From Anadara kagoshimensis (lineage: Eukaryota > Mollusca > Bivalvia > Arcoida > Arcidae): 64,000 bases of DNA. Position numbers and translations under genes: made by a program. Numbering within the stretch: position 1 is the stretch's first letter; each line of letters opens with the position of its first letter. The stretch is taken from positions 5,726,163 through 5,790,162 of the forward strand of contig CM037866.1 in NCBI GenBank assembly GCA_021292105.1, read 5' to 3'. The notes below the pieces were generated by a model. It was not told the DNA's origin. It saw only the letters and a list, made by a program, of their open reading frames with translations, and did no database searches. Below, in pieces: positions 6,876 through 59,966 of this stretch.

Positions 6876-8409
6876 TAGCTCACCTGAGCCAAAAGGCTCA
6901 GATGAGCTATTGCTTCTATCACCGTCCGTCGTCGTGTGTCGTGCGTCGTGCGTAAACTTTACATTTTAATCTTCTCCTCCAAAACTACTGAGCCAAATTT
7001 GATGAAACTTAGTGATTATTATGCCTGGGTAACAGCCTTTCAAAATTGTGTTCAGGGTTTGACCACGCCCAACAATATGGCTGCCGTTACTATAAATAGC
7101 CAAAAGACAAAAAAATCTTCTTCTCTGAAACCAAAAGGTGCAGGCAGATTTTGATTAGATTTTTGGATTCGGATACCTAGATACACTTAAATTGTGTTTT
7201 TCATGAAAATTGGACGAAAAATAGTTTACGCGTTTTTTGCGTAAAATTATGTAATTTTAAAATGAGACATTTATTTTATAGCTTCATAATGGCTGAAGAT
7301 AATTGTATGGAGTTTTCACTGTTGATCTTGTCTTGCGATATTCTTCCGATTGATGTCAAGGTCAAAGGTCAGGTCATGTCCCAGTTTTTGACCTGTGATA
7401 AAAAATGCTATTTTTTAAACATTTCTGGTGATAATGATGTAGGATTTTGGTTAATTGTAGTATTTACATGACGATCATTTTGATATATTGATTAAGGTCA
7501 TGGTTCAAAGGTCAAGGTCACAGATGTACAAGTTTACCAAATAGTTAATTATCTGCAAAACTATGAACTTTTTGTATAGGCATGTACATTAGAATATTGT
7601 AGGTAATGCCCAATGGTCATTTTGATATATAAATAAAGGTCATGAGTTCAAAGGTCAAGGTCACAGATGTAAACAAGTACTGAAATGATTATTTATCTCA
7701 AAAACTATAGACTTTTTGTATAGGCATGTATATTAGAATATTCTAGGTATTATCCTAACGATCATTTTGATATATGAATAAAGGTCATGGGTTAAAAGGT
7801 CAAGGCCACAGATGTGAATGAATACCTGAATGGTTAATTATCTTGAAAACTGTTAACTTTTTGTATATGCATGTATATTAGAATATTGTAGGTATTAGCC
7901 TTGCAACCATTTTTTATATAAACGAAGGTTATGGGTTCAAAGGACAAGGTCACAGATGTGAACAAGTTCTGAAATGATTATTTATCTCAAAAACTATAAA
8001 CCTTTTGTATAGGCATGTATATTAGAATATTTAGGTATTATCCTAATAGTGATCATTTTGATATATGAATGAAGATCATGGGTTCAAAGGTCAAGGTCAC
8101 AGATGCAAAAGAATACCTAAATGGTTAATTATCTTGAAAACTATTAACTTTTTGTATAGGCATGTATATTAGAATATTGTTGGTACTGGCACAGTGGTCA
8201 TTTTGATATATGAATGAAGAGCATGAGTTTAAATGTCAAGATCACAGATACAAAAAAGTTCCTGAGATGATTATTTATCTCGAAAACTATAAACTTTTTG
8301 TATAGGGATGTATATTAGAACATTGGCCTAATTATCATTTTGATATTTGAATGAAGCTCATGGGTTCAAAGGTCACAGGTGAGCGTTAAGGCCCATGGGC
8401 CTCTTGTTC
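6876..8409 (+). mobile_element. 1.5 kb element with CTCACCTGAGCC end and ~145 bp internal tandem units
   Basis: The left end is TAGCTCACCTGAGCC followed by CAAAAGGCTCAGATGAGC and a CGTCGTGCGTCGTGCGT stretch; the right end is CAGGTGAGCGTTAAGGCCCA then GGGCCTCTTGTT. The short CTCACCT/AGGTGAG termini are inverted. In between are a conserved TTGATGAAACTTAG word, an AACAATATGGCTGCCGTTAC word, and about six units of the 145 bp repeat. No transposase frame is present, so the element is non-autonomous. The class is not certain from sequence alone. Confidence 0.7.
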
Positions 8410-17454: not shown

Positions 17455-18238
17455 GCCGCGCTCTCGTACCCTAGTGCCGCGCTCTCGTACCCTAGTGCCG
17501 CGCTCTCGTATCCTAGTACCGCGCTCTCGTACCCTAGTGCCGCGCTCTCGTACCCTAGTGCCGCGCTCTCGTACCCTAGTGCCGCGCTCTCGTACCCTAG
17601 TGCCGCACTCTCGTAGCCTAGTGCCGCGCTCTCGTATCCGTATCCTAGTGCCGCGCTCTCGTAGCCTAGTGCCGCGCTCTCGTATCCTAGTGCCGCGCTC
17701 TCGTAGCCTAGTGCCGCGCCCTCGTACCCTAGTGCCGCGCTCTCGTACCCTAGTGCCGCGCCCTCGTACCCTAGTGCCGCGCTCTCGTAGCCTAGTGCCG
17801 CGCTCTCGTAGCCTAGTGCCGCGCTCTCGTAGCCTAATGCCGCGCTCTCGTACCCTAGTGCCGCGCTCTCGTAGCCTAGTGCCGCGCTCTCGTACCCTAG
17901 TGCCGCGCTCTCGTAGCCTAGTGCCGCGCTCTCGTACCCTAGTGCCGCGCTCTCGTAGCCTAGTGCCGCGCCCTCGTACCCTAGTGCCGCGCTCTCGTAG
18001 CCTAGTGCCGCGCTCTCGTAGCCTAGTGCCGCGCTCTCGTAGCCTAATGCCGCGCTCTCGTACCCTAGTGCCGCGCTCTCGTAGCCTAGTGCCGCGCTCT
18101 CGTACCCTAGTGCCGCGCTCTCGTAGCCTAGTGCCGCGCTCTCGTACCCTAGTGCCGCGCTCTCGTAGCCTAGTGCCGCGCTCTCGTACCCTAGTGCCGC
18201 GCTCTCGTAGCCTAGTGCCGCGCTCTCGTATCCTAGTA
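17455..18238. repeat. 21 bp minisatellite, ~37 units
   Basis: The unit is CCGCGCTCTCGTACCCTAGTG with a frequent GTAGCC variant. Because 21 is a multiple of 3 and the unit lacks stops, frames stay open on both strands for almost 300 codons (RERGTRL/RERGTRV on minus, VPRSRTL on plus). No start context, signal or domain supports a protein. A rare AATGCCGCG variant occurs at 17836 and again 210 bp later, showing a ten-unit higher-order duplication. One unit near 17637 is lengthened by six bases. Confidence 0.93.
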
Positions 18239-18782: not shown

Positions 18783-19772
18783 TTATACCTTTTCTTCCTC
18801 AATACCCAACAAATCTATGAAAAACTTTGAAATAGTATCATAAATATCTTTATTTCTCTGAATATGTAGACCATAAACCAGCAGGTTATATTTGCGGGAC
18901 CTCCACTCCTGATAGAACAAGTGATCATGTATTCTATCAAATTGTTCTTCAGTGTTATCCTTTTGAATTTGAAGATTACCTTTCATTTGTTCCATATTCA
19001 AAAAAAAGAAAATCACCAACCTTGATTTATGGGAGAAGACCAAACAACAACCTATAGAGATGGAGCTATCAAAAAGGAAATGGCGATGGATATGACACAC
19101 ACTGCGGAAGCCAACAAATTCAATTACAAGACAAGCATTGAAGTGGAATCCTCAAGGAAAAAGAAAAGTTGGAAGGCCGCCAAGAAACACCTGGCGGAGA
19201 AACCTGCAATCAGAAATGGATAGAGAGGGATACAAATGGCAAGACCTGGGCAGATTAGCACAGAATAGAACCAGATGGAGGAGTGTTGTCAGTGGCCTAT
19301 GTACCTCCCTGGTACCACAGGCATAAATGTGAAGTGTGTGTTCCATATTAAAATTACAGGATTTTACAACCTCATTCAAATGTCCATGCATCGTTGTTAC
19401 CTCCACTTCCACGTCTCTCACTTCTTTTTGTACCGAATGCAACTCGCTAGTTAGTTTGTCCAACTTACTAATCAGTGGGTCCACAGCCTTTTGTATTGAT
19501 GTTTAAATGTCATGTTTAATGTTTTCCTCATAAAATTGATTTAATAATATTTCAAACGAGGACAAAGTCATGGACGGTTCATTCTCATTGAGGGATGTCT
19601 GGGCGACCATTTTGTTTTTTTCAGTACTGCTTTGGCCAGATTGAGATGCAGAATTGTCCGTAACTGACATATTTCTCGTTAACACAGACCGTATATCTGT
19701 CTGCTTAATACCCTGTCTATTACTCTTATAACCTGCTCCTCTTCTTTGTGACATTTGTAGATTTATTTCCAT
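18783..19772 (-). pseudogene. LINE ORF1-like remnant
   Basis: Minus-strand segments read MSVTDNSASQSGQSSTEKNK, then a coiled-coil-like part (LISKLDKLTSELHSVQKEVR) and finally RSRKYNLLVYGLHIQRNKDI with a FFIDLLGIEE ending. The order coiled coil then R-x-x-NLLVYGL is that of ORF1 proteins of L1-like non-LTR retrotransposons. A stop after ENIKHDI breaks the frame near 19503, and a later insertion at 18999-19338 splits the rest. The remnant abuts the satellite at its right end. Confidence 0.65.
18999..19338 (+). mobile_element. 5'-truncated LINE 3' end inserted in the ORF1 remnant
   Basis: The plus-strand frame has the C-terminal signature of RTE/Jockey-type reverse-transcriptase proteins: KWRWIGHTLRK followed (after frame slips) by QALKWNPQGKRKVGRPP, RNTWRRNL, then KWQDLGRLAQNRTRWRS. 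The insert is flanked by the 11 bp direct repeat TGTTCCATATT (18988-18998 and 19339-19349), the target-site duplication expected of target-primed reverse transcription. Only the last ~100 codons are present, so it was dead on arrival. Confidence 0.82.
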
Positions 19773-22700
19773 CGTTTACAATTGTCATCCCAGTAAGCAA
19801 GTATTTGAGCAGTACTCACATCTTTTACACTTGTCATTCCAGTAAGCAAGCATTTGAGCAGTATTTACATCGTTTACAATTGTCATCCCAGTAAGCAAGT
19901 ATTTGAGCAGTATTCACATCGTTTACAATTGTCATCCAAGTAAGCAAGTATTTGAGCAGTATTCACATCTTTTACACTTGTCATTCCAGTAAGCAAGCAT
20001 TTGAGCAGTATTCACATCGTTTACACTCGTCATCCCAGTAAGCAAGTATTTAAGCAGTATTCACATCGTTTACAATTGTGTCATACCAGTAAGCAAGTAT
20101 ATGAGCAGTATTCACATCGTTTACAATTGTCATCCAAGTAAACAAGTATTTGAGCAGTATTTACATCGTTTACAGTTGTCATCCCAGTAAGCAAGTATTT
20201 GAGCAGTATTCACATCGTTTACACTCGTCATCCCAGTAAGCAAGTATTTGAGCAGTATTCACATCGTTTACAATTGTCATCCCAGTAAGCAAGTATTTGA
20301 GCAGTATTCACATCGTTTACAATTGTCATCCCAGTAAGCAAGTATTTGAGCAGTATTCACATCGTTTACAATTGTCATCCCAGTAAGCAAGTATTTAAGC
20401 AGTATTCACATCGTTTACAATTGTCATCCCAGTAAACAAGTATTTGAGCAGTATTTACATCGTTTACACTTGTCATTCCAGTAAGCAAGCATTTGAGCAG
20501 TATTTACATCGTTTACAATTGTCATCCCAGTAAGCAAGTATTTGAGCAGTATTCACATCGTTTACACTCGTCATCCCAGTAAGCAAGTATTTGAGCAGTA
20601 TTCACATCGTTTACAATTGTGTCATCCCAGTAAGCAAGTATTTAAGCAGTATTCACATCGTTTACAATTGTGTCATCCCAGTAAGCAAGTATATGAGCAG
20701 TATTCACATCGTTTACAATTGTCATCCAAGTAAGCAAGTATTTGAGCAGTATTCACATCGTTTACAATTGTCATCACAGTAAGCAAGTATTTGAGCAGTA
20801 TTCACATCGTTTACAATTGTCATCCCAGTAAGCAAGTATTTGAGCAGTATTCACATCGTTTACAATTGTCATCACAGTAAGCAAGTATTTGAGTAGTATT
20901 CACATCGTTTACAATTGTCAACCCAGTAAGCAAGTATTTGAGTAGTATTCACATCGTTTACAATTGTCATCACAGTAAGCAAGTATTTGAGCAGTATTCA
21001 CAACGTTTACAATTGTCATCCCAGTAAACAAGTATTTGAGCAGTATTCACAACGTTTACAATTGTCTTCCCAGTAAGCAAGTATTTGACCAGTATTCACA
21101 TCGTTTACAATTGTCTTCCCAGTAAGCAAGTATTTGAGCAGTATTCACATCGTTTACAGTTGTCATCCCAGTTAGCAAGTATTTGAGCAGTATTCACATC
21201 GTTTACAATTGTCTTCCCAGTAAGCAAGTATTTGAGCAGTATTCACATCGTTTACAATTGTCTTCCCAGTAAGCAAGTATTTGACCAGTATTCACATCGT
21301 TTACAGTTGTCATCCCAGTTAGCAAGTATTTGAGCAGTATTCACAACGTTTACAATTGTCATCCCAGTTAGCAAGTATTTGAGCAGTATTCACATCGTTT
21401 ACAATTGTCATCCCAGTAAGCAAGTATTTGAGCAGTATACACATCGTTTACAATTGTCATTCCAGTAAGCAAGCATTTGAGCAGTATTCACATCGTTTAC
21501 ACTCGTCATCCCAGTAAACAAGTATTTGAGCAGTATTCACATCGTTTACAATTGTCATCCCAGTAAGCAAGTATTTGACCAGTATACACATCGTTTACAA
21601 TTGTCTTCCCAGTAAGCAAGTATTTGAGCAGTATTCACATCGTTTACAATTGTCATCCCAGTAAGCAAGTATTTGAGCAGTATTCACATCGTTTACAATT
21701 GTCATCCCAGTAAACAAGTATTTGAGCAGTATTCACAACGTTTACAATTGTCATCCCAGTAAACAAGTATTTGAGCAGTATTCACAACGTTTACAATTGT
21801 CTTCCCAGTAAGCAAGTATTTGACCAGTATTCACATCGTTTACAATTGTCTTCCCAGTAAGCAAGTATTTGAGCAGTATTCACATCGTTTACAGTTGTCA
21901 TCCCAGTTAGCAAGTATTTGAGCAGTATTCACATCGTTTACAATTGTCTTCCCAGTAAGCAAGTATTTGAGCAGTATTCACATCGTTTACAATTGTCTTC
22001 CCAGTAAGCAAGTATTTGACCAGTATTCACATCGTTTACAATTGTCTTCCCAGTAAGCAAGTATTTGAGCAGTATTCACATCGTTTACAGTTGTCATCCC
22101 AGTTAGCAAGTATTTGAGCATTATTTACATCGTTTACAATTGTCATCCCAGTAAGCAAGTATTTGAGCAGTATTCACATCGTTTACAATTGTCATCCCAG
22201 TAAGCAAGTATTTGACCAGTATTCACATCGTTTACAATTGTCTTCCCATTAAGCAAGTATTTGAGCAGTATTCACAACGTTTACAATTGTCATCCCAGTA
22301 AACAAGTATTTGAGCAGTATTCACATCGTTTACAATTGTCATCCCAGTAAGCTAGTATTTGAGCAGTATTTACATCGTTTACAATTGTCATCCCAGTAAA
22401 CAAGTATTTGAGCAGTATTCACATCGTTTACAATTGTCATCCCAGTAAGCTAGTATTTGAGCAGTATTCACAACGTTTACAATTGTCATCCCAGTAAACA
22501 AGTATTTGAGCAGTATTCACATCGTTTACAATTGTCATCCCAGTAAACAAGTATTTGAGCAGTATTCACATCGTTTACAATTGTCATCCCAGTAAGCAAG
22601 TATTTGTGCAGTATTCACATCGTTTACAATTGTCATCCCAGTAAGCAAGCATTTGACTAGTATTCACATCGTTTACAATTGTCTTCCCAGTTAGCAAGTA

Positions 22701-25700
22701 TTAGAGCAGTATACACATCGTTTACAGTTGTCATCCCAGTAAGCAAGTATTTGAGCAGTATTCACATCGTTTACAATTGTCATCCCAGTAAGCAAGTATT
22801 TGAGCAGTATTCACATCGTTTACAGTTGTCATCCCAGTTAGCAAGTATTTGACTAGTATTCACATCGTTTACAATTGTCTTCCCATTAAGCAAGTATTTG
22901 AGCAGTATTCACAACGTTTACAATTGTCATCCCAGTTAGCAAGTATTAGAGCAGTATACACATCGTTTACAATTGCCATCCCAGTAAGCAAGTATTTGAG
23001 CAGTATTCACATCGTTTACAATTGTCATCCCAGTAAGCAAGTATTTGAGCAGTATTCACATCGTTTACAGTTGTCATCCCAGTTAGCAAGTATTTGACCA
23101 GTATTCACATCGTTTACAATTGTCTTCCCATTAAGCAAGTATTTGAGCAGTATTCACAACGTTTACAATTGTCATCCCAGTTAGCAAGTATTAGAGCAGT
23201 ATACACATCGTTTACAATTGCCATCCCAGTAAGCAAGTATTTGAGCAGTATTCACAACGTTTACAATTGTCATCCCAGTTAGCAAGTATTAGAGCAGTAT
23301 ACACATCGTTTACAATTGCCATCCCAGTAAGCAAGTATTTGAGCAGTATTCACATCGTTTACAATTGTCATCCCAGTAAGCAAGTATTTGACCAGTATTC
23401 ACATCGTTTACAATTGTCTTCCCATTAAGCAAGTATTTGAGCAGTATTCACAACGTTTACAATTGTCATCCCAGTAAACAAGTATTTGAGCAGTATTCAC
23501 ATCGTTTACAATTGTCATCCCAGTAAGCAAGTATTTGAGCAGTATTCACATCGTTTACAGTTGTCATCCCAGTTAGCAAGTATTAGAGCAGTATTCACAT
23601 CGTTTACAGTTGTCGTCCCAGTAAGCAAGTATTTGAGCAGTATTCACATCGTTTACAATTGTCATCCCAGTAAGCAAGTATTTGAGCAGTATTCCCATCG
23701 TTTACAGTTGTCATCCCAGTTAGCAAGTATTAGAGCAGTATACACATCGTTTACAATTGCCATCCCAGTAAGCAAGTATTTGAGCAGTATTCACATCGTT
23801 TACAATTGTCATCCCAGTAAGCAAGTATTTGACCAGTATTCACATCGTTTACAATTGTCTTCCCATTAAGCAAGTATTTGAGCAGTATTCACAACGTTTA
23901 CAATTGTCATCCCAGTAAACAAGTATTTGAGCAGTATTCACATCGTTTACAATTGTCATCCCAGTAAGCAAGTATTTGAGCAGTATTCACATCGTTTACA
24001 ATTGTCATCCCAGTAAGCAAGTATTTGACCAGTATTCACATCGTTTACAATTGTCTTCCCATTAAGCAAGTATTTGAGCAGTATTCACAACGTTTACAAT
24101 TGTCATCCCAGTAAACAAGTATTTGAGCAGTATTCACATCGTTTACAATTGTCATCCCAGTAAGCTAGTATTTGAGCAGTATTTACATCGTTTACAATTG
24201 TCATCCCAGTAAACAAGTATTTGAGCAGTATTCACATCGTTTACAATTGTCATCCCAGTAAGCTAGTATTTGAGCAGTATTCACAACGTTTACAATTGTC
24301 ATCCCAGTAAACAAGTATTTGAGCAGTATTCACATCGTTTACAATTGTCATCCCAGTAAACAAGTATTTGAGCAGTATTCACATCGTTTACAATTGTCAT
24401 CCCAGTAAGCAAGTATTTGTGCAGTATTCACATCGTTTACAATTGTCATCCCAGTAAGCAAGCATTTGAGCAGTATTCACATCGTTTACAATTGTCTTCC
24501 CAGTTAGCAAGTATTAGAGCAGTATACACATCGTTTACAGTTGTCATCCCAGTAAGCAAGTATTTGAGCATATTCACATCGTTTACAATTGTCATCCCAG
24601 TAAGCAAGTATTGAGCAGTATTCACATCGTTTACAGTTGTCATCCCAGTAGCAAGTATTTGACTAGTATTCACATCGTTTACATTGTCTTCCCATTAGCA
24701 AGTATTTGAGCAGTATTCACAACGTTTACAATTGTCATCCCAGTTAGCAAGTATTAGAGCAGTATACACATCGTTTACAATTGCCATCCCAGTAAGCAAG
24801 TATTTGAGCAGTATTCACATCGTTTACAATTGTCATCCCAGTAAGCAAGTATTTGAGCAGTATTCACATCGTTTACAGTTGTCATCCCAGTTAGCAAGTA
24901 TTTGACCAGTATTCACATCGTTTACAATTGTCTTCCCATTAAGCAAGTATTTGAGCAGTATTCAAACGTTTACAATTGTCATCCCAGTTAGCAAGTATTA
25001 GAGCAGTATACACATCGTTTACAATTGCCATCCCAGTAAGCAAGTATTTGAGCAGTATTCACAACGTTTACAATTGTCATCCCAGTTAGCAAGTATTAGA
25101 GCAGTATACACATCGTTTACAATTGCCATCCCAGTAAGCAAGTAAAGTAAAATAAACTAAGCAAGTATTTGAGCAGTATTCACATCGTTTACAATTGTCA
25201 TCCCAGTAAGCAAGTATTTGACCAGATTCCACACGTTTACAATTGTCATCCCATTAAGCAAGTATTTGAGCAGTATTCACCGTTTACAATTGTCATCCCA
25301 GTAAACAAGTATTTGAGCAGTATTCACATCGTTTACAATTGTCATCCCAGTTAAGCAAGTATTTGAGCAGTATTCACATCGTTTACAGTTGTATCCCAGT
25401 AGCAAGTATTTAGAGCAGTATTCACATCGTTTACAGTGTCGTCCCAGTAAGCAAGTATTTGAGCAGTATTCACATCGTTTACAATTGTCATCCCAGTCAG
25501 CAAGTATTTGAGCAGTTCCATCGTTTACAGTTGTCATCCCAGTAGCAAGTATTGAGCAGTATACACATCGTTTACAATTGCCATCCCAGTAAGCAAGTAT
25601 TTGAGCAGTATTCACATCGTTTACATTGGTATCCCAGTAAGCAAGTATTTGACCAGTATTCACATCGTTTACAATTGTCTTCCCATTAAGCAAGTATTTG

Positions 25701-26950
25701 AGCAGTATTCACAACGTTTACAATTGTCACAGTAAACAAGTATTTGAGCAGTATTTCACATCGTTTACAATTGTCATCCAGTAAACAAGTATTGAGCAGT
25801 ATTTACATCGTTTTACAATTGTCATCCAGTAACAAGTATTTGAGCAGTATTCACACACGTTTACAATTGTCATCCCAGTAACAAGTATTTGAGCAGTATT
25901 CACAACGTTTACAATTGTCATCCCAGTAAACAAGTATTTGAGCAGTATTCACATCGTTACAATTGTCATCCAGTAACAAGTATTTGAGCAGTATTCACAT
26001 CGTTTACACAATTGTCATCCCAGTAAGCAAGCATTGAGCAGTTTCACATCGTTTACAATTGTCATCCAGTAAGCAAGCATTTGAGCAGTACACATCGTTA
26101 CAATTGTCATCCCAGTAAACAAAGTATTTGAGCAGTATCACATCGTTTACAATTGTCATCCAGTAAACAAGTATTTGAGCAGTATTCACATCGTTACATA
26201 TTGTCATCCACAGTAAGCAAGTATTTGAGCAGTATTCACATCGTTTAACAATTGTCATCCCAGTAAGCAAGTATTTGAGCAGTATTTACTCGTTTACAAT
26301 TGTCATCCCAGTAAAGCAAGTATTTGAGCAGTATTCACAACGTTTACAATTGTCATCCCAGTAAACAAGTATTTGAGCAGTATTCACATCGTTTACAATT
26401 GTCATCCCAGTAAGCTAGTATTTGAGCAGTATTTACATCGTTTACAATTGTCATCCCAGTTAGCAAGTGTTTGAGCAGTATTCACATCGTTTACAATTGT
26501 CATCCCACTAAGCAAGTATTTGAGCGGTATTCACATCGTTTACAATTGTTATCCAAGTAAGCAAGTATTTGAGCAGTATTCACATCGTTTACAATTGTCA
26601 TCCCAGTAAGCTAGTATTTGAGCAATATTCACATCGTTTACAATTGTCATCCCAGTAAACAAGTATTTGAGCAGTATTCACATCGTTTACAATTGTCGTC
26701 CCAGTAAGCAAGTATTTGAGCAGTATTTACATCGTTTACAATTGTCATCCCAATAAGCAAGTATTTGAGCAATATTCACATCGTTTACAATTGTCATCCC
26801 AGTTAGCAAGTATTTGAGCATTATTTACATAGTTTACAATTGTCATCCCTGTAAGCAAGTATTTGAGCAATATTCACATCGTTTACAATTGTCATCCCAG
26901 TAAGCAAGTATTTGACCAGTATTCACATCGTTTACAGTTGTCATCCCAGT
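19773..26950. repeat. 49 bp satellite array derived from the terminal exon of gene B
   Basis: About 146 head-to-tail units of 49 bp (for example CAGTAAGCAAGTATTTGAGC, then AGTATTCACATCGTTTACAA and TTGTCATCC). On the minus strand one unit encodes WDDNCKRCEY-CSNTCLL plus one base, which is the C-terminal part of the chitin-binding-like domain of gene B (26892-27076) and gene A. The array abuts the intact exon with no gap. Variants recur in blocks: identical variant order at a distance of 1813 bp (37 units; GCTAG variant at 22351 and 24164, TTTGTGCAG variant at 22604 and 24417) and 735 bp (15 units; 21062 and 21797). The many short frames inside are by-products. Confidence 0.95.
24560..26330. 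other. Low-quality (indel-rich) part of the satellite
   Basis: Units here lose single bases very often (GAGCATATTC for GAGCAGTATTC, CCCAGTAGC for CCCAGTTAGC, CATCCAGT for CATCCCAGT), whereas units before 24540 and after 26340 are almost all exactly 49 bp. The pattern of mainly one-base deletions is that of unpolished long reads in a repeat rather than natural divergence. Confidence 0.6.
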
Positions 26951-27076
26951 ATAGGTGTCCTGGACATCGACGTCCATCTATTGTTCTCCATGTCCCTGTA
27001 CAGGTTACGTAATACCTACATCCCAGACATGACTGATAATTGCCGGTCGGTAATCCACGACATGCCGTTACACAAC
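26892..27076 (-). CDS. Gene B, terminal exon 4: chitin-binding type-2-like domain
   Basis: Minus strand. The acceptor TTTTATTTTAG precedes the exon at 27077. The exon completes an Arg codon with the preceding micro-exon, then reads CVTACRGLPTGNYQSCLGC followed by RYYVTCTGTWRTIDGRRCPG and HLYWDDNCKRCEYWSNTCLLG, stop TGA at 26894-26892. Cysteine spacing and the C-P-x-x-L-x-W-D ending fit a peritrophin-A/CBM14 domain. The sequence is closely related to gene A's terminal exon. The basic tail present in gene A is missing: the reading frame enters the second 49 bp unit and stops there. Confidence 0.8.
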
Positions 27077-33483: not shown

Positions 33484-33906
33484 TATAAAAATTATTTACG
33501 AAAACGAATGTCTCTAAACATTAAAGATGAACAATAGGTACCGGGTGTTTATAGTAATGGAACATGCTGTGTCACTAACACCACTATAAGCCCAATTTAA
33601 TATTCAAATTTAAGGCCAAGCGGCCAGGTTAAACTTGATGCACTAAAACTAGTTTTCTATATCATGGCCCTGGGAAGATGACAACCTTGTGACCAAGTGA
33701 TCGCAACACGATCAAAATAACGGGAAGTTGAATTTTGTCTTTTGACAAGAAAACTGAATGCACACATGTATAAGTCTTCCGTAGGCTATATATTCTTTTA
33801 AATTTACGCACTGCCAAATAAAACTGCTGATGCGACGTTAAGCAACATTCAACCAACCAACCAACCGCATTGAAATTAAAACAAAAATAAATACAAGCCT
33901 CATTAC

Positions 33907-34063
33907 CATAACATAAACATTTATCCCTGGTCCCCCTGATCCGGTAGTTTTCCTCCTGGACATTTTTTACAGACTCTCTGACCAGGAGTATCCTGATAAT
34001 ATCCTTTCGGACATGGACAACACTTCATCAAATAATTTAGATAATATCCGGCCGGACAGACAT
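33907..34063 (-). pseudogene. Duplicate of gene B exon 2, two bases short
   Basis: Same acceptor and donor as the exon at 36088-36246, but CCGGTAG and GTTTTCC here replace CCGGGTAG and GTTTTTCC, which costs two bases and shifts the frame after GGK. Either a real decay or an uncorrected homopolymer error. If the two bases are restored by resequencing, it would be an in-frame 159 nt phase 1-1 exon. Confidence 0.6.
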
Positions 34064-34125
34064 CTGAAAGTAGAGTTTAAAAAAATCCTATTAATGTAAT
34101 AATTTGCTGTCCAATTTTCAATCAC

Positions 34126-34440
34126 TGCGGTAGCTGAGTTTGCAGAGTGCTCGCTCCGTAAGTAGGAGGTTGTGGGTTCGAACCCCAACCAGGTCTGATC
34201 CAAGACTTGAAAGTGGTCGATGACTGTTCTTTTGCCAAGCGCTCGGCATTACGAAATGCAAGTCACGGTTCTTTTGGCTGGGAACTTAAATAAATGAGGT
34301 CCCGTGTCACAATAGGCGTGACACGATCAAGAACCCTGCTGTACACAGGCAAAATTTCTGCACCTTCGCCTTAAGCTGACGACGTCTCGATATGAGTGAA
34401 ATATTCTAGACTGGACGTAAAGTATCAGTACTCAACACAA
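34126..34440 (+). mobile_element. SINE family 1 (in duplication copy 1)
   Basis: Head CGGTAGCTGAGTTTGCAGAG, B box GGTTCGAACCC, tail with ACTGGACGTAAAGTATCAGT. Its twin lies at 36305-36618. Confidence 0.85.
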
Positions 34441-34797
34441 CTTCAATTTCCGTGGTATTGGATTGGTAAAATCGATCATGGTTTGCGATTACTGTAAAAG
34501 GAGGTGATATTCGCGGAGTGAAAATTTTGTGATTTCTGAAAATGGCATTTCGCATGTGTTTAATTTTCGCGTAGACAATATAAGTGGAAGTATATCTTAT
34601 ATGTTATGATATATTATTCTTGCACCCCAGATAGAAAAATCCATAAAAAGAGAGGTACAAGATATCTTCATCTTGTACCCCCCTGTGCAAGATAGCCTAC
34701 ACGCTGTTTTTCCCGCAAATTTTATCAACAAAATTAGAGGTGTATCGAAAGTTGAAATCGATTTAAAATTGAAAAATTGTACTTTCTGATGCAAGAA

Positions 34798-34955
34798 ATA
34801 GAATCAATCACTACTTGTGGTGCCAGATAAGGAAAACTTAACCCTCGTTCTAATATATTTGGTCCAGAACTCGGCAAGCCTCGTTCTGGACCAAATATAT
34901 TAGAACTCGGATTGAGATTTTCCTATCTGGCACCACAAGTAGTGATAGATTCTAT
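34798..34955. other. Long hairpin in duplication copy 1
   Basis: ATAGAATCAATCACTACTTG and GTGGTGCCAGATA..GGAAAA and TTCTAATATATTTGGTCC on the left pair with GGACCAAATATATTAGAA, TTTTCCTATCTGGCACC and CAAGTAGTGATAGATTCTAT on the right. The arm is about 73 bp with few mismatches. Its twin is at 36981-37138. Neighbouring TTCGCG-rich words suggest the centre of a short foldback element. Confidence 0.75.
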
Positions 34956-36087
34956 TAATCTGTATGGTAGATATTTTCGCGAGGGTAAATTTTTCGCGGT
35001 AATTTCTTTAAAAAGCTTTTTTATTAGATATTCATTTAATTCATATTTCAAAAAGGATGCCTTCGGTGTTTTTGCGAGCGATCGACCCACAGGCATATTC
35101 CTGGTATGCCTGTATGAGGCCAGTGTTATATAAAATATTGTTTTCTGTCACTTAATCGTTGATAATATTTCAGTTTAAATCAGTTATAAAAGTGCCTGTA
35201 CAATGAATAAATATATTTTAAATCGAAAGTAAATTATTTTAGTGATTAACCGATGCCCCAGCAGCATTTTCAACTCGTTTTTCCAGATTACAAACAAACC
35301 TACAGCCAAGGCACTCTTGTTACATATACCAGTATACAACAACAAGCACGTTGTTGAGATGGCATGTTGTATACGAGACTTTCACTTTGCTTTGTCTTGT
35401 TATATATGTTAATATCGATGCTTATACAACTTGCTTAGACATTAACTTTTAAAGAAAAAAGTATAATTACTTATGCACTTACAACTAATTTAGTAAAAAA
35501 AAATTGTTTTGAAGATACAAAAATTACGAAAAATTGAAAAACAAAATTCCGTACAATGTATGGGATTCGAGCCCACACATTGAAAGAATAGCATCCACTG
35601 AGCTACCGAAGCTTACGAAACGCTTTGTACATGTATATACTATAATATATGAGTGACGGACAAGGATAATATTTACGAAAACGAATGTCTCTAAACATTA
35701 AAGATGAACAATAGGTACCGGGTGTTTATAGTAATGGAACATGCTGTGTCTAAATCACACAGTCTATAAGCCCAATTTAATATTCAAATTTAAGGCCAAG
35801 CGGCCAGGTTAAACTTGATGCACTAAAACTAGTTTTCTATATCATGGCCCTGGGAAGATGACAACCTTGTGACCAAGTGATCGCAACACGATCAAAATAA
35901 CGGGAAGTTGAATTTTGTCTTTTGACAAGAAAACTGAATGCACACATGTATAAGTCTTCCGTAGGCTATATATTCTTTTAAATTTACGCACTGCCAAATA
36001 AAACTGCTGATGCGACGTTAAGCAACATTCAACCAACCAACCAACCGCATTGAAATTAAAAACAAAAATAAATACAAGCCTCATTAC

Positions 36088-36246
36088 CATAACATAAACA
36101 TTTATCCCTGGTCCCCCTGATCCGGGTAGTTTTTCCTCCTGGACATTTTTTACAGACTCTCTGACCAGGAGTATCCTGATAATATCCTTTCGGACATGGA
36201 CAACACTTCATCAAATAATTTAGATAATATCCGGCCGGACAGACAT
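36088..36246 (-). CDS. Gene B, exon 2: GCC2/GCC3 (ephrin-receptor-like) Cys-rich domain
   Basis: Acceptor CTCTACTTTCAG, 159 nt, donor GTAATGAGG, phase 1-1. It encodes VCPAGYYLNYLMKCCPCPKG then YYQDTPGQRVCKKCPGGKTT and RIRGTRDKCLCY. The pattern C-x-x-G-Y-Y...C-x-x-C-P-x-G-Y-Y-Q...C-x-x-C-P-x-G-x-T-T...C is that of GCC2/GCC3 modules of extracellular proteins. It aligns throughout with gene A's exon 2. Confidence 0.78.
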
Positions 36247-36304
36247 CTGAAAGTAGAGTTTAAAAAAATCCTATTAATGTAATAATTTGCTGTCCAATTT
36301 TCAA

Positions 36305-36618
36305 TCACTGCGGTAGCTGAGTTTGCAGAGTGCTCGCTCCGTAAGTAGGAGGTTGTGGGTTCGAACCCCAACCAGGTCTGATCCAAGACTTGAAAGTGGT
36401 CGATGACTGTTCTTTTGCCAAGCGCTCGGCATTACGAAATGCAAGTCACGGTTCTTTTGGCTGGGAACTTAAATAAATGAGGTCCCGTGTCACAATAGGC
36501 GTGACACGATCAAGAACCCTGCTGTACACAGGCAAAATTTCTGCACCTTCGCCTTAAGCTGACGACGTCTCGATATGAGTGAAATATTCTAGACTGGACG
36601 TAAAGTATCAGTACTCAA
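36305..36618 (+). mobile_element. SINE family 1 (in duplication copy 2)
   Basis: Twin of 34126-34440 with the same diagnostic substitutions, so it was present before the duplication event. Confidence 0.85.
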
Positions 36619-38011
36619 CACAACTTCAATTTCCGTGGTATTGGATTGGTAAAATCGATCATGGTTTGCGATTACTGTAAAAGGAGGTGATATTCGCGGA
36701 GTGAAAATTTTGTGATTTCTGAAAATGGCATTTCGCATGTGTTTAATTTTCGCGTAGACAATATAAGTGGAAGTATATCTTATATGTTATGATATATTAT
36801 TCTTGCACCCCAGATAGAAAAATCCATAAAAAGAGAGGTACAAGATATCTTCATCTTGTACCCCCTGTGCAAGATAGCCTACACGCTGTTTTTCCCGCAA
36901 AATTTTATCAACAAAATTAGAGGTGTATCGAAAGTTGAAATCGATTTAAAATTGAAAAATTGTACTTTCTGATGCAAGAAATAGAATCAATCACTACTTG
37001 TGGTGCCAGATAAGGAAAACTTAACCCTCGTTCTAATATATTTGGTCCAGAACTCGGCAAGCCTCGTTCTGGACCAAATATATTAGAACTCGGATTGAGA
37101 TTTTCCTATCTGGCACCACAAGTAGTGATAGATTCTATTAATCTGTATGGTAGATATTTTCGCGAGGGTAAATTTTTCGCGGTAATTTCTTTAAAAAGCT
37201 TTTATTAGATATTCATTTAATTCATATTTCAAAAAAGGATGCCTTCGGTGTTTTTGCGAGCGATCGACCCACAGGCATATTCCTGGTATGCCTGTATGAG
37301 GCCAGTGTTATATAAAATATTGTTTTCTGTCACTTAATCGTTGATAATATTTCAGTTTAAATCAGTTATAAAAGTGCCTGTACAATGAATAAATATATTT
37401 TAAATCGAAAGTAAATTATTTTAGTGATTAACCGATGCCCCAGCAGCATTTTCAACTCGTTTTTCCAGATTACAAACAAACCTACAGCCAAGGCACTCTT
37501 GTTACATATACCAGTATACAACAACAAGCACGTTGTTGAGATGGCATGTTGTATACGAGACTTTCACTTTGCTTTGTCTTGTTATATATGTTAATATCGA
37601 TGCTTATACAACTTGCTTAGACATTAACTTTTAAAGAAAAAAGTATAATTACTTATGCACTTACAACTAATTTAGTAAAAAAAAAATTGTTTTGAAGATA
37701 CAAAAATTACGAAAAATTGAAAAACAAAATTCCGTACAATGTATGGGATTCGAGCCCACACATTGAAAGAATAGCATCCACTGAGCTACCGAAGCTTACG
37801 AACGCTTTGTACATGTATATACTATAATATATGAGTGACGGACAAGGATAATGGTTTAATTTTTAAGAATTTTTCAAAGTTTTACCATGATGGCAGGCAT
37901 GCCCGTGGATTATCTTTAGGTCAGTGAAAACTACATTAAATCATTAAATACCCACATTTTATATTAATGTCTGTTTTGTTCACGGGCAGGCCTGCCATTA
38001 TTATAAAATTG

Positions 38012-39156: not shown

Positions 39157-41215
39157 ATTTTTTCTGTACCTTTTCAGTAGGTTGGCCAGTCGAATTTACG
39201 GTAACATTATAACTATCTGTCACTGCACCAGAACTCTCCGCATCTAAAATATTATCTTTGGAAGTATTTTCTTCTTTCATGTCCTCAACTTCATCTTTCG
39301 CATTTTCATGACTGTCATATTCATAAGAACCGTAAAATAGGTCGTAAAAATCAACGTGTAGTCCTCCTTTAGAACTGTTCTCAACTTCGGAACTTTCTGA
39401 CACAGCAACATCACCGGAACTGCTCTCTTTACCCCCACTTTCGTCCTCTCCAGAACCGCTCTCATCACTCTTGCTGTCTCCAATTTCCTCTTCTCCAGAA
39501 CAGCTCTCACCACTCTTGCTTTCTTCAATTTCGTCCTCTCCAGAACCGCTCTCATCACTCTTGCTGTCTTCAATCTCGTCCTCTCCATAACCGCTCTCAT
39601 CATTCTTGCTGTCTCCAATTTCCTCTTCTCCAGAACAGCTCTCATCACTCTTGCTGTCTTCAATTTCGTCCTCTCCAGAACCGCTCTCATCACTCATGCT
39701 TTCTTCAATTTCGTCCTTCCCAGAACCGCTCTCATCACTCATGCTTTCTTCAATTTCGTCCTTCCCAGAACCGCTCTCAGCACTCATGCTTTCTTCTATT
39801 TCGTCCTCTCCAGAACCGCTCTCATCACTCATGCTTTCTTCAATTTTGTCCTCTCCAGCACCGCTTTCATCACTCATGCTTTCTCCAATTTCGTATTCTC
39901 CAGAACCGCTCTCGTCACCCATGCTTTGTTTAATTTCGTCCTCTCCAGAACCGCTCTCATCATTCATACTTCTTTCAATTTCGTCCTCCTCAGAACTGTT
40001 CTCATCACTCATGCTGTCTTCAATTTCGTCCTCTCCAGAACCCCTCTCATCACTTATGCTTTCTTCAATTTCGTCCTCTCCAGAACCGCTCTCATCACTC
40101 ATGCTGTTTTCAATTTCGTCCTCTCCAGAACCGCTCTCATCATTCATGCTTCCTTCAATTTCGTCTTCCCCAGAACCATTATCACCAGTAAGACTGGTGT
40201 CTATGTCAATATTTTCAGAACCGTTTGAGTTTTGTCCAGGTATAAACTCATTACTTTCATTTGTCTTTTCTTCGTTTTGTGTACTATCTGGCAACGCACT
40301 AGTACTAGTCCCGTTTTCCCCAGCTCCATAGCCAGACATATCTGGAACACTGACGTTTTCCCGCCTCTCGGACATCTCATTCTCATATAAGTTTTGAGCA
40401 CTGGTATCTATTCTATTGTCCCGTTCAGAATTGTTTCTCTTGTACTCCCCATTCTCATATAAGTCAGGATCAGCATCACTGTTATTTATTCTACTGCTGT
40501 CTCTTTTTACTAAAGCTTCAGAGTTATTTCTCTTGTACTTTCCATTCTCATATAAGTTTTGAGCACTGGTATCTATTCTATTGTCCCGTTCAGAATTATT
40601 TCTCTTGTACTCCCCATTCTCATATATATCAGGATCAGCATCACTGTTATTTATTCTACTGTTGTCTCCTTTTACTAAAGCTTCAGAGTTATTTCTCTTG
40701 TACTTTCCATTCTCATATAAGTCAGGATAACTCTTATTTATTCTACTGCTGTCTCCTTTTACTAAAGCGTCAGAGTTATTTCTCTTGTACTTTCCATTCT
40801 CATATAAGTCAGGATAACTCTTATTTATTCTACTGCTGTCTCCTTTTACTAAAGCGTCAGAGTTATTTCTCTTGTACTTTCCATTCTCATATAAGTCAGG
40901 ATAACTCTTATTTATTCTACTGCTGTCTCCTTTTACTAAAGCGTCAGAGTTATTTCTCTTGTACTTTCCATTCTCATATAAGTCAGCATCACTGTTATTT
41001 GTTCTACTGTTGTCTCCTTTTACTAAAACTTCAGAGTTATTTCTCTTGTACGCCTCATTCTCATATAAGTTCGTAGCACTCTTATTGTCTTTTTGTGAAT
41101 TATTATCGCTTGATCCTCCATTATTAGTGATTCTTATCAAAGAACTGGAATCCTCACGTGTAAAGACAGGGTATATTAACAGAAGAAAGACGGAAACCGA
41201 GGACACAAGCTCCAT
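39157..41215 (-). CDS. Gene B, exon 1: signal peptide and long acidic repeat region of a secreted protein
   Basis: An acceptor TTTGTTTGTAG directly precedes the ATG, so a noncoding exon lies upstream. Residues 1-19 (MELVSSVSVFLLLIYPVFT) are a signal peptide. Then come about eight Asn-rich units of the form LYENGKYKRNNS with DALVKGDSSRIN, and 16 acidic 15-residue units like SGSGEDEIEESMSDE, followed by a Tyr/Asp-rich stretch (VDFYDLFYGSYEYD). The donor AAAAAAT|GTAAGTAA ends the exon in phase 1. S-x-E motifs in every acidic unit are potential Fam20C-type phosphorylation sites. The joined gene (exons 41215-39157, 36246-36088, 28815-28795, 27076-26892) has 807 codons plus stop. It is likely an extracellular chitin-associated acidic matrix protein; tissue and function are inferred. 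Confidence 0.85.
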
Positions 41216-44586: not shown

Positions 44587-44846
44587 TCACGGTTTATAGT
44601 ATTTAGGTTTTTTAGAGTAACCAGACTTATGGGATCTTTCATATTTTCTGGAATATTTATTTTTATGATGGCGGCAGGTATTGGACTTGTATTCACATCT
44701 CTTGCAGTTGTCGTCCCACTCTAGGTAAGCTGGACACTTCCGGCCATCTATGATGTAATATCCGCCGATACAGGAAGCGTAGAAGTTACACCCTAAGCAT
44801 GATGGGTAATCACCTGGAGGTAAGCCCTTGCATTTCTTTACACACC
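44587..44846 (-). CDS. Gene A, terminal exon 4: chitin-binding type-2-like domain with basic tail
   Basis: Acceptor TCTTCTTTTACAG, then in phase 1: CVKKCKGLPPGDYPSCLGC, NFYASCIGGYYIIDGRKCPA, YLEWDDNCKRCEYKSNTC, and a Lys/Tyr/His-rich tail (KNKYSRKYERSHKSGYSKKP) to a TGA at 44587. The Cys pattern and C-P-x-x-L-x-W-D match peritrophin-A/CBM14 chitin-binding domains. The WDDNCKRCEY...SNTC stretch is the same one that makes up the 49 bp satellite downstream of gene B. Confidence 0.85.
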
Positions 44847-46980: not shown

Positions 46981-47136
46981 CAAAACATTGACAGCGATCT
47001 CTGGTTCCTTCCATCCGGGTAGTTGTACCTCTCGGGCATCTTTTGCAAAATTTTTGGTTTGGTTTGGGTTGAAAGAATCCCCTTGGACACGGCCGACATT
47101 TTCTAAATCTGAGGAAAAATCCTGGCTGGCATATGA
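46981..47136 (-). CDS. Gene A, exon 2: GCC2/GCC3 Cys-rich domain
   Basis: Acceptor AATTATTTATTTCAG, 156 nt in phase 1-1, donor GTAAGAATA. It encodes ICQPGFFLRFRKCRPCPRGF, FQPKPNQKFCKRCPRGTTTR and MEGTRDRCQCF. Eight Cys with the spacing of the gene B exon, and a shared T-T-R-x-x-G-T-R-D-[RK]-C ending. Such modules occur in extracellular and receptor proteins, often in tandem with other Cys-rich domains. Confidence 0.78.
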
Positions 47137-49042: not shown

Positions 49043-49760
49043 CTGACTTTTTGTAGTGGTATTTGTTAGATATTACACCATATTTTTTATCCTTTCTTTT
49101 GTAATTGTCTTTTTTGTGTATTTGATTATTGTTGTCATGTCTTTTCCTATCTTTCATTCCTGGACTATCCGATTGTCTTGGGTTCTGACTATCGCTGTTC
49201 CATGCCGGAGTTGTTTGTAAAACATTGCCGTCAGTTCCAATAATATTTCCAAACACATCGTCGATATTTACTTCACCATCGATATCGACGGGAGTAATAT
49301 CGCCGTCCCCACCATTAGGAAATAAGTCATCGATCGTCATGTTGCCATCATCCGTCATATCGCCAGTTGCCGTATCGACAGTATTATTGTCGCTCTGTGT
49401 GTTTCCGCCATTATTGTCGTTTCGTGTGTTTCCGCCATTATTTTCGTTTCGTGTGTTTCCGCCATTATTTTCGTTTGGTGTGTTTCCGCCATTATTGTCG
49501 ACCCATGTGTTTCCGCCATTATTATCGACCCATGTGTTTCCGCCATTATTGTCGTTTCGTGTGTTTCCGCCATTATCGACAGAACCATTAGTCAGGTCGC
49601 CATTTTCAATATTTCCGGGTGATATGATGTTTCTATCTTTGACACCATTGTTCACTTTCCCGCCATATCCGTTATACCCATAGTCTTGACCTCCATATTC
49701 CCTCATAGATTCTACCACCCGAAATATCAACACAAACAGCAGCAAAAACACAACCTTCAT
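49043..49760 (-). CDS. Gene A, exon 1: signal peptide and Asn/Gly repeat region of a secreted protein
   Basis: I start at MKVVFLLLFVLIFRVVES because an acceptor TTTCATTTCAG directly precedes this ATG, as in gene B; a frame extends five codons further upstream. After the signal peptide come a Gly/Tyr stretch (YGGQDYGYNGYGG), seven 9-residue units like NNGGNTRND (27 bp), an acidic stretch (DGDITPVDIDGEVNIDDVF) and a basic C-terminal part (DRKRHDNNNQIHKKDNYKR). The donor AAAGTCAG|GTAAGAG ends the exon in phase 1. Joined exons 49760-49043, 47136-46981, 46487-46470, 44846-44587 give 383 codons plus stop in frame. A paralogue of gene B, 3.4 kb upstream of it on the same strand; only the repeat region differs in kind. 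Confidence 0.85.
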
Positions 49761-55832: not shown

Positions 55833-58265
55833 ATAGGGTAAATACATAAAAAGAGATCAAAATAAGTTGCATTTTGTCTTTCCTCAAGGTACTAACATGA
55901 AATGTGGCATGGGTACCATGGAAAGTAACCTCAGATATTTTTTGGAAAAATAAAACAAATATTTTTATATGAACAAAATTAACATTTAAAAAATAAAAGA
56001 TATTGAATTACTAAAAAGTTAGAAAAATTTATGAACAGGCAGATAGTTAGAAATTTTGTCATATTGTTGTTTGTTAAATGAATGACAAGTGGGCCATAAT
56101 AGCATTTAAAAGGACTAAAATTGTCTAAATTATAAAAATTAATTTAGAAACTACACAAACAGGTGATTTTTTGGGGGACAGGTACTTTCTAGTTGTTCTG
56201 GCTGTGATAAATAGATAAATCATTTACAAATAAATCAAAAACTATGGGATCATATGGCAGTGTTCATTCTAGAAAGGGGCTGTTGATCCTTTATTTTGCC
56301 AAATGGCACCATTGTAAAGGCCATAGTTGGCCACATTTGAAATTAGATTTCAAATGCAAGTTCAAAATATTTGATAGCATTGTCATATATAAAAGCTACA
56401 TTATATGAAACTTTTAAATACTTCATTACAAAAGCTTTTACATCAGCCTAAAAGACTACAAGTCACATCAAACATTAGATGTATGCAAAATCATTGATGT
56501 TATTCAACTTGTTATTAGAGGAATTTTATTAGAAATGAACCCATCTGAAAAAATCCTAGAATGAACACCCATGGTTATTACTATTTACACATAATGGAAC
56601 ATTTTTCAAAGAAAAATGCATTATGTGTGTCTAAACCAACTTTGTAAAATGTAATAATGTTGAATGTCTCATTTCATGTAAAATTAAAACATAACAATAT
56701 CTTTAATACACTAGGAATTAGATATCATCAGACATTTATGAATGTTTCATTTTATATAGAATTAAAAAAATCAACACATATCAATATCCTTAACATACTG
56801 GGAATTATATACCATTACACATTTATGAATTGAATGCTTCTCTTGATACTGAATACCTCTTTTTCACCACATGAAATGCTTTTCATGCACCCTTGCCTGA
56901 AGTGTAGCATAGGTTAAAATCTTACTATGTCAGAAAGTTTGCCAGTTCTCTTGTTGAGGGGTGTGATTTACTTCAGGGATGAAGCCTGAATATTTTGAGT
57001 TTGGGGCCAGCTCACTTCATAAAAAAATTTGTAACAGTATAAATGGCTTAAATGTGTAAACATTAAGTGGCCCATACTCGAATTTAGAAGCCATTGGCTA
57101 CTGGGCCCCTGCAAATCTTCATCCCTGTACCTATTTTCCTCCTTAATCTCATTTACCTGATTATAATTGAAATAATCTTGAATGGGGTGTGTATACCAAC
57201 CAATCAATTCTAAATTTAACTGATAAATCAATAAATCTGGATAGGCCTAGTGTGTTACAATTATTTTGAATTCTTACAAACTAATAATGCCCATTTGGAT
57301 ACACTGTGTCATGAATTTCACTGCATTTGCATCAACTTATTTCTTAATGCTATTATCAAACCAGTTCCCATGAATTTTCCTAAAAGAAGGTGATATTTAT
57401 TTATTAGAATTTTACAATTTACAGAAATTACTGAAATTCCTAAATATTTTACAGATCTGTATTTAATCATTATAATATGGAGTTAAATTTTTAACCAAGT
57501 CAAATGAAATCCACATGATTGGTATTCACTTTTCCTATTTCCACATAGTCTATTTTAAATGTTATTTGTGCTATGTCAAGTTGACTTAAAACTTTTAATG
57601 AAGCAAAATAATCAACTTTTAATGTCTAAATTGTACTAAAATAATAATGCCGGGGTTATTGGCATCAGAACAGAAACAAAAATTCAAATAATAAAGACCA
57701 ATGTTGTGTTGACTCTGGCTAAACTAACATGGGAGATGTTTCCTCATTTTGGGAAATATTTCATAAAGAAAAATCCAGTCTAACCATCTTTAATGATATT
57801 AGCTTATTTATCCAATGATATGTACTGATATGACAGACAGGTCCTGTTTATATTTTGCCAGCAAAGCAAAATCAGTTGGTAATTTTCAGTAATTCTGAGT
57901 CCCTAACTAGCCCTACATGAGCAGGTTGCACTGTACACTGTATTGGTACAGACCCCGAGTCCATATGGGTAAAATTAGAATACATGCATATCTAATGAGT
58001 TCGGCAGCCATGCAGATCGATCATACATGACAAATAAGGCAAAAAAGCTTGACTATTTTGTCCAAAATACACGATGACATTTTCTGCATGCTAAAATTGT
58101 GATCGAAGCGGGACGAATGCTAATCAAATATGTCCGACTGGAAGTAGTTCCAAAAAATCGGCAGATTAGACGAGAAATGGAGAGAAAATACAATATTTTT
58201 AAGGAAAAACTTACTTTATTTCAACAAAAATATCTCCACAGCGTCTCTCGATTATCAAATTTATA
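55833..58265. other. Unassigned interior of the 6.2 kb element
   Basis: AT-rich, no frame above 90 codons, no recognised motif, no partner elsewhere in the window. 57900-58260 is less AT-rich and might be 5' regulatory sequence of the helicase module. Confidence 0.3.
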
Positions 58266-58566
58266 CACAGGCATTTGTTTCTATGAATGAAAAAAAAATC
58301 GAGAAATTACTATATAATAACACAAGGTGGTCATCTCTTTTTCAGGAGAATTACCACCAGTCCGCTTCAAACTGATTATTTCCATTTTTGCACGATAAAA
58401 ATTCAAACAAACCTGGTACCGTTCGATTCAAAACACTTTTATCTTTACGGTAATACACATTTTTGTATCCCTCGATAACCCCTCGCTTGAATAATTGACA
58501 TATTTCTCAGCTATTCCAACGACTACGACAAATATCACACTTCCACTATATTCACTTCCGGTCCGC
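58266..58566. repeat. 301 bp inverted repeat, left arm
   Basis: Inverse of 59666-59966 over its whole length with hardly any difference (CACAGGCATTTGTTTCTATG ... CACTTCCGGTCCGC). The same 63-codon frame appears on + in this arm and on - in the other, and is not credible as a gene. Confidence 0.92.
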
Positions 58567-58661
58567 TGCGCAGGGAATATGATGACCATATTTGATTGGT
58601 CGGTGAATAAATAGAATCACAAATCGAAAGTAGAAATTGTAAAACAGGTAAAACGACAAGA

Positions 58662-59261
58662 ATGCAAGACGATATTGTTCAAAAGGCGGTAAATGGCCAT
58701 TCCTTGTTAATTTTAGGCCAGAGTGGCACTGGAAAGAGTTTTGTTTGTAAAGAAATTGCCCGTAAACTTAAAGAAAAGTGTATAAATGTAAGGCTTACAG
58801 CCACTACAGGGATAGCATCCCTTAATATAGGGGGACAAACTGTTCATTCGTGGTGTGGTATTGGCGATGGTAGATATTCGAACGAAAATTTACTGGACAA
58901 AATTTCTAACAATGAACATTTTTTAATATATAAGAACAATATTTTAACAACAGACTGCTTAATCATTGATGAAATTTCTATGTTGTCAAAACGCTTATTC
59001 GATGACCCAGGAGAATATTGTTTTGTCTCGGATATTTTTAAAACCTATTTTATTCATAAATTTGTATTAACTGATGTCATGCGTCAAAATCAGCCAGACT
59101 TTATTAAGGCTGTGAATGATGTGTCGAGAGGAAATTTACCTGATGACACTCTTAAATCTGATCCCCCCCCCCCCCCTACAAATGTAGGTACCGTCATTTT
59201 TTTTTTAACTCTATGCTGCATTCTCCATGTTTACAGAAACACAAATTTGACTAGGTACTAG
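58662..59261 (+). pseudogene. PIF1-family helicase fragment with internal deletion
   Basis: Residues 1-40 hold the Walker A motif (LLILGQSGTGKSFVCKEIAR). An ATTGIASLNIGGQTVHSW segment follows, as in PIF1 motif Ia. Walker B is LIIDEISMLSKRLF near residues 98-111. Directly after RLFD the frame jumps to DPGEYCFVSDIFKTYF, so the usual helicase stretch with the motif III region (GD-x-x-Q-L-P-P) is missing, and after LTDVMRQNQPDFIKAVNDVS the frame ends in a low-complexity Pro run. It lacks motifs IV-VI. It is a decayed copy of a mobile-element-type PIF1 helicase rather than the host gene. Confidence 0.78.
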
Positions 59262-59394
59262 TACCATAGAAAGCCTCATTTGGTACTATCTCCTTTATAT
59301 ATTTCCCCAAAACGTCAATATAATTGGCTGTATTACAAATTGAGAGTTCTCTCATTATACTTACCAAAAAGTAATTGCAAAATTATTTCTGCAT

Positions 59395-59634
59395 TCACTC
59401 ATTTTGAAAAGTATCAAAATTGTCCGTTTTAAATTTCCCACCAAATGTCAATTTGATTTCATCGGGAGTTATCGTTCTTATTTGGAAACCCTCTTGACTT
59501 GTCATGGCGTACATGTTGAGAACATAAATATAGTCAAAATAATAAAACACAGATTTTAAATTAAGATATGTATTATTTTGTTTGTGTAAAAATATAAATG
59601 TTAAAACTGTTATACGTTTATATTTTTTAAACAA
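59395..59634 (-). CDS. Unknown short frame opposing the PIF1 fragment
   Basis: 79 codons on minus; the last half (LNMYAMTSQEGFQIRTITPD then EIKLTFGGKFKTDNFDTFQN) looks protein-like, the first half does not. It begins just inside the right arm of the 301 bp inverted repeat, as the PIF1 fragment does at the left arm. No family recognised. It could be the first exon or a truncated version of a second element gene. Confidence 0.3.
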   Translation of the reverse strand: MFKKYKRITVLTFIFLHKQNNTYLNLKSVFYYFDYIYVLNMYAMTSQEGFQIRTITPDEIKLTFGGKFKTDNFDTFQNE

Positions 59635-59665
59635 CTCATTTTATTTACTCAAAATAATATTAACT

Positions 59666-59966
59666 GCGGACCGGAAGTGAATATAGTGGAAGTGTGATAT
59701 TTGTCGTAGTCGTTGGAATAGCTGAGAAATATGTCAATTATTCAAGCGAGGGGTTATCGAGGGATACAAAAATGTGTATTACCGTAAAGATAAAAGTGTT
59801 TTGAATCGAACGGTACCAGGTTTGTTTGAATTTTTATCGTGCAAAAATGGAAATAATCAGTTTGAAGCGGACTGGTGGTAATTCTCCTGAAAAAGAGATG
59901 ACCACCTTGTGTTATTATATAGTAATTTCTCGATTTTTTTTTCATTCATAGAAACAAATGCCTGTG
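59666..59966. repeat. 301 bp inverted repeat, right arm
   Basis: GCGGACCGGAAGTGAATATA at its inner edge and CATAGAAACAAATGCCTGTG at its outer edge; the inverse of 58266-58566. Confidence 0.92.

Follow-up and report, generated by a model that had tools for sequence, protein, structure and literature searches.

A 49-bp minisatellite array at the 3' coding end of a CBM14-like gene in Anadara kagoshimensis

We analyzed a 64,000-nucleotide stretch of contig CM037866.1 (hereafter the window) from the bivalve Anadara kagoshimensis (assembly GCA_021292105.1, positions 5,726,163 to 5,790,162 of the forward strand). The window contains a 49-bp tandem array where the coding part of gene B ends; gene B is modelled as three minus-strand exons that encode 800 aa, including a CBM14-like domain. 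Very probably this array is a minisatellite that originated locally, from the 3' coding end of the last exon of gene B. The repeat unit equals the final 16 codons of the CBM14-like domain (YWDDNCKRCEYWSNTC) plus one base, and the exon unit runs straight into the array with register and orientation unchanged. The coordinates of the features are collected in Table 1.

The array, its founder unit, and its single-copy relatives

Tandem Repeats Finder (TRF) placed a tandem array of period 49 at 19770-26951, with 146.5 copies and 91% matches. Wrap-around alignment on the minus strand yielded 147 units from 26951, followed by a final unit cut after ~26 bases; the exon itself forms unit 1, only 24 bp are left of unit 38, and the arrangement is head to tail throughout, with a single orientation. 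The portion at 19770..26902 lies past the gene B stop codon except for its first 11 bases. This confirms what the initial annotation had described, a 7.2-kb array in which the last 49 bp of the exon recur about 146 times. Of the span given there (19773..27076), the start was correct within a few bases, but 27076 is the start of exon 3 and the repeat starts at 26951. Outside the array, the only BLAST match to the unit with an E value below 1 in the window was in gene A. Minisatellites have tandem units of roughly 10-100 bp in arrays of up to some 20 kb, and the 49-bp units over 7.2 kb fall within that range. Satellite DNA is characterized by high genome-wide copy number, often at several loci or in heterochromatin. 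With one array within 64 kb, the present element is by size a local long minisatellite rather than a demonstrated satellite. PMC6947457 gives minisatellites up to 100 units under a definition without consensus, and the 146 units found here are above that figure.

Table 1. Positions of the features in the window (all on the minus strand).
Feature	Position	Strand	Basis or remark
AATAAA just past the cut last unit	19762..19767	-	only sense-strand AATAAA between 27100 and 19500
Rest of the 49-bp array, ~146 units, last cut after ~26 bases	19770..26902	-	TRF, wrap-around alignment
Array units 13-50, indel-rich, probably unpolished assembly	24555..26363	-	alignment
Gene B exon 3, coding part, CBM14-like domain	26892..27076	-	splice acceptor, frame, open reading frame
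Unit 1, founder, still coding (YWDDNCKRCEYWSNTC plus 1 base), end of gene B exon 3	26903..26951	-	alignment; keeps C15 and G36, as gene A
Gene B exon 2	36088..36246	-	Ephrin_rec_like Cys-rich domain
Gene B exon 1	39157..41215	-	signal-peptide-like start judged by eye; in-frame 87-bp and 45-bp coding repeats
Gene A exon 3, CBM14-like domain, segment once (44721-44674), then tail RHHKNKYSRKYERSHKSGYSKKPKYYKP	44587..44846	-	
Gene A exon 2	46981..47136	-	
Gene A exon 1, in-frame 27-bp repeats	49043..49760	-	

Exon 3 of gene B ends ...CPGHLYWDDNCKRCEYWSNTCLLG followed by the stop codon. The paralogous gene A carries the corresponding segment once in a normal exon, as the initial annotation had stated; there it reads EWDDNCKRCEYKSNTC and is followed by a 28-aa basic tail. 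When the unit was aligned to both terminal exons, a check proposed in that annotation, it coincided with the unit 1 region of gene B and matched gene A at 78% over 45 bp (E 3e-5 within the window). The domains of the two genes share 64% protein identity over 56 residues (E 2e-23), and the DNA of exons A and B is 79% identical over the 48 bases of the segment and 62% upstream. The sole protein relative found, P0001, shows 74% identity with gene A across 94% of the 140 residues used; it too has the segment once, followed by a similar basic tail that ends its sequence. A repeat counts as exon-derived when its unit has a coding homologue that occurs only once in relatives, and both gene A and P0001 hold such a single segment.

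The full CBM_14 profile of Pfam (PF01607, positions 1-53) was matched by gene B at 21.7 bits and by gene A at 18.1 bits, both under the curated cut-off of 22.1. The predicted structure of the exon 3 domain was of low confidence, and a PDB sequence search with this domain returned four rows, the best at E 0.043 and one of them a CBM14 protein at E 0.58. In-frame coding repeats of 45 bp (39439-40177) and 87 bp (40590-41070) are present in gene B and of 27 bp (49383-49576) in gene A, and the gene family of A and B seems prone to tandem repeats.

Exons A and B agree at 38 of the 48 sites compared and differ at 10. At these 10 sites the array consensus has the gene B base in every case (10/10) and the gene A base in none (0/10). 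It departs from the base common to both exons at two sites only, 15 and 36, where exon B retains the gene A base. Both results point to exon B as the source, and by this comparison of sequences the array is a descendant of exon B that arose after the A/B split. At site 15 the exon base persists in 17/146 array units (12/108 clean) and at site 36 in 16/146 (12/108 clean), the 108 clean units being the array minus the exon unit and minus units 13-50. The exact exon unit is absent from the array, its nearest counterpart being unit 117 with one mismatch. Site comparison and contiguity together support the view in the initial annotation that the array was built from the end of a coding exon and that the founder unit is still in the gene.

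Frame break, array growth, and alternative explanations

Because 49 (3 × 16 + 1) is not a multiple of 3, unit 2 provides the stop codon of gene B: the open frame enters this unit by eight bases and ends at TGA 26894-26892 (unit 2 positions 9-11), giving LLG and stop. The gene A-type tail is missing from gene B. A plausible course of events would begin with a 49-bp tandem duplication after the gene A/gene B split, via slippage or microhomology-mediated copying. The stop codon of the duplication would have removed the ancestral basic tail and left later units untranslated. Freed from coding constraint, the array could then have grown while being homogenised by unequal exchange and block duplication, and a deletion or insertion may have cut its far end and joined it to unrelated sequence that possibly supplies the poly(A) signal.

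The array units have a mean identity of 93.8%. Identity to the exon unit stays level from one end of the array to the other: ten successive blocks, each with up to 15 units, gave 0.925-0.941, with no gradient of divergence outward from the exon. Consequently, the direction of spread is not visible, contrary to the initial annotation; what does show is a homogenised core between less uniform edges. Units with an identical copy elsewhere numbered 2/12 at the first edge (exon unit included), 9/15 at the last, and 70/82 in the clean core (edges 11/27 versus core 70/82, p 1.5e-5, with the edge limits chosen after viewing the block table). The core is homogenised and the edges are richer in unique units, the pattern expected under unequal exchange. 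Block duplications are also present, units 53-62 being equal to units 90-99 at a lag of 37.

Several observations weigh against the birth of the array from exon B. The models of genes A and B rest on open frames and splice sites. The single-copy state is known from the paralogue gene A and from P0001 only, not from an array-free gene B; P0001 resembles gene A, not gene B, and no relative of gene B was found in the protein collection at E 0.01 among 2 and 206 candidates in a search that needs shared 5-residue words. A search for the gene A-type tail across the window returned gene A itself and all else at E 2 or worse, and since the sequence past the array did not yield the ancestral tail, the duplication junction is not reconstructable. 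At site 36 the shared G is weak evidence because the gene A codon differs there (AAG versus TGG). The variants of the array also lean synonymous: the 37 distinct variant states of the 108 clean units comprise 10 synonymous, 24 nonsynonymous, and 3 stop states in the exon frame. In favour of birth from exon B, however, this synonymous excess is not significant (neutral expectation 15-18%; p 0.06 unweighted, 0.13 with transition/transversion weighting), and coding constraint on the array is not shown despite the lean, whereas between the two exons 6 of the same 16 codons differ synonymously and 2 nonsynonymously (Fisher p 0.017 for array states versus exon A/B codons, a rough value that mixes variant states with codons).

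At the far end the array breaks off mid-unit against other sequence, which leaves only one side of the birth site visible. This junction would also fit a pre-existing genomic satellite that had inserted beside gene B, the exon having taken in, or been converted by, a satellite unit. Such an insertion is very improbable given that the unit lies wholly within a conserved domain present without the array in gene A and P0001, that at both sites where the array departs from exon B its base is the derived one when compared with gene A, and that gene A holds the only other copy of the unit in the window at the E value given above. The lack of an exact match to a 32-base piece in the viral collection adds little weight on the same side. 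An AATAAA stands just past the cut unit (Table 1), so the array may be transcribed as a 3' untranslated region (UTR), and the AATAAA that begins at 19767 may serve gene B; variants of the poly(A) signal occur as AGTAAA at 26290, inside the noisy stretch of the array, and as ATTAAA at 19545 and 19520. Selection for the array as a 3' UTR feature of gene B, as opposed to passive expansion, is compatible with the same origin and would agree with the sole sense-strand AATAAA directly past it and with the synonymous lean (p 0.06 to 0.13). We judge this very improbable, however, as a stop occurs in unit 2 and many more further along, the predicted RNA folding of two units was no better than that of shuffles (z +0.32), and no Rfam match at the gathering threshold was obtained in 16-28 kb. 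No function of the array itself is supported.

Beyond the far end, Pfam searches of the minus-strand open frames at 19775-19503 and 19151-18783 gave 0 families, and the plus-strand frame at 19096-19323 gave one sub-threshold row (E 0.1). These frames may resemble retroelement remains. No further copies of the 18.24-19.77 kb stretch were detected in the window at E 1e-3.

Assembly quality and copy number

In units 13-50 (~24.55-26.36 kb) the alignment shows 66 deleted bases, of which unit 38 accounts for 25, along with 13 inserted ones. The other 109 units have 0 deleted bases and 6 inserted bases, the latter being three identical 2-base inserts. Among the 41 deleted bases outside unit 38, 25 fall within runs of two or more equal bases, and such runs make up 19 of the 49 unit bases. 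Units 13-50 are probably unpolished assembly, and for this reason the copy number is uncertain. In addition, units 26-62 nearly repeat units 64-99, with 0 to 4 mismatches per compared block and with differences in the noisy part that are mostly gaps, so the assembled array length may be inflated. Within this near-repeat, units 26-37 differ from units 64-75 by 4 mismatches and 19 gap bases, and units 39-49 differ from units 76-86 by 0 mismatches and 5 missing bases.

A shorter true array inflated by misassembly of noisy long reads would explain the deleted and inserted bases of units 13-50 as well as the near-repeat of units 26-62, and a nearby duplication of at least 2 kb (33.62-35.67 versus 35.80-37.85 kb) with 0 mismatches and 10 gap bases also speaks for it. 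This explanation concerns length and is compatible with birth from exon B; we consider it very improbable. Setting the noisy units aside leaves 108 clean array units, and a clean control pair shows 32 mismatches over 571 columns. Between units 51-62 and 88-99, which are clean as well, there are 2 mismatches and no gaps, the outcome expected of a true recent duplication. The noisy units 13-25 are a near copy of no other block, their best block match having 21 mismatches, within the values of 12, 21, 24, and 28 for four clean controls. We conclude that the array is real and that its length is not certain; the true copy number would be near 110 if the block of units 26-62 is an artefact and near 146 if it is a true duplication. 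The duplication at 33620-37850 is itself probably an unpolished assembly duplicate. Its match may extend further, and the 34-kb duplicate holds a copy of gene B exon 2 that is two bases short.

Comparison with known systems and other repeats

Most satellites have no readable origin. Minisatellites in genes normally stay attached to their parent, and repeats in coding exons are usually in frame. The suggestion in the initial annotation that satellites born from a host exon are rarely seen with the parent attached is not supported, as gene-resident minisatellites such as those of mucin exons normally keep theirs. Arrays of such size that start inside genes are already known as a kind. The mucin exon variable number tandem repeats (VNTRs) of PMC13345508 are gene-resident repeats and resemble the present case in having tandem units within a gene and the parent gene attached. 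In contrast to VNTRs in coding exons, the unit here is 3n+1 in length, ends the frame, and occupies the position of the paralogue's tail. The nearest gene-born satellite seen among the matches is CapA of Platyrrhini, which PMC8210747 and PMC7210261 derive from an intron of NOS1AP. It is likewise traced to single-copy host-gene sequence, and duplication with unequal crossing-over is proposed there; however, CapA is intronic, has a unit of about 1500 bp, and makes up about 5% of a genome, whereas the unit here is coding, 49 bp long, and at one known locus. CharSat01-52 of characiform fish, as described in PMC8210747, is a 52-bp repeat with arrays of 34 and 23 units in the 3' UTR or last intron of ppfia1 and, like the present array, stands at a gene's 3' end. 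The authors of that work suggest entry of an already existing satellite into the gene, whereas here the gene is the source.

The model of Haber and Louis, as outlined in PMC6947457, has minisatellites born from short flanking repeats. The proposed route is alike, a unique segment being duplicated and then subject to slippage, conversion, or unequal exchange, and the flanking short repeats are not checkable here because the ancestral 3' flank was not found. A 2017 review (PMC5615363) names the ribosomal DNA spacer and transposable elements as seeds of satellites and adds that any random sequence could in theory play this part. No satellite grown from a coding exon appeared among the matches listed, which were titles and abstract starts of open-licence papers retrieved with narrow wording. 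Among them, it is less usual for a coding founder, a frame break, a missing tail, and ~146 copies to occur together.

The founder, the derived units, and an unexpanded paralogue stand within ~25 kb, and this allows the birth of the array to be dated to after the gene duplication. The arrangement also suggests a simple route by which a protein may lose its C-terminal tail. A broader idea, which we put forward tentatively and regard as possible at best, is that a frame-breaking duplication acts as a one-step release: with a stop codon of its own, it would from the outset set a coding segment free as 3' sequence. Exon duplications that are out of frame could then run away into satellite-like arrays, while in-frame ones within one gene family would stay short. 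The three in-frame first-exon arrays of genes A and B have 7.2, 16.4, and 5.5 copies and the out-of-frame array has 146.5, a comparison of four arrays only in which the in-frame ones are all in first exons. That a frame break frees a repeat to expand is testable across genomes, and if the idea is true, new satellites would regularly arise at the coding ends of genes.

Other repeats occur in the window. A 21-bp GC-rich array of 37 copies (GCCGCGCTCTCGTACCCTAGT) at 17455-18237 is open in several frames. Two arrays of a 145-bp repeat with a AAGGTCAAGGTCA-like motif are located at 2-896 and 7471-8380. A perfect 304-bp inverted repeat spans 58263-59969 with 1099 bp between its arms, and a PIF1-helicase-like frame lies between them at 58611-59261.

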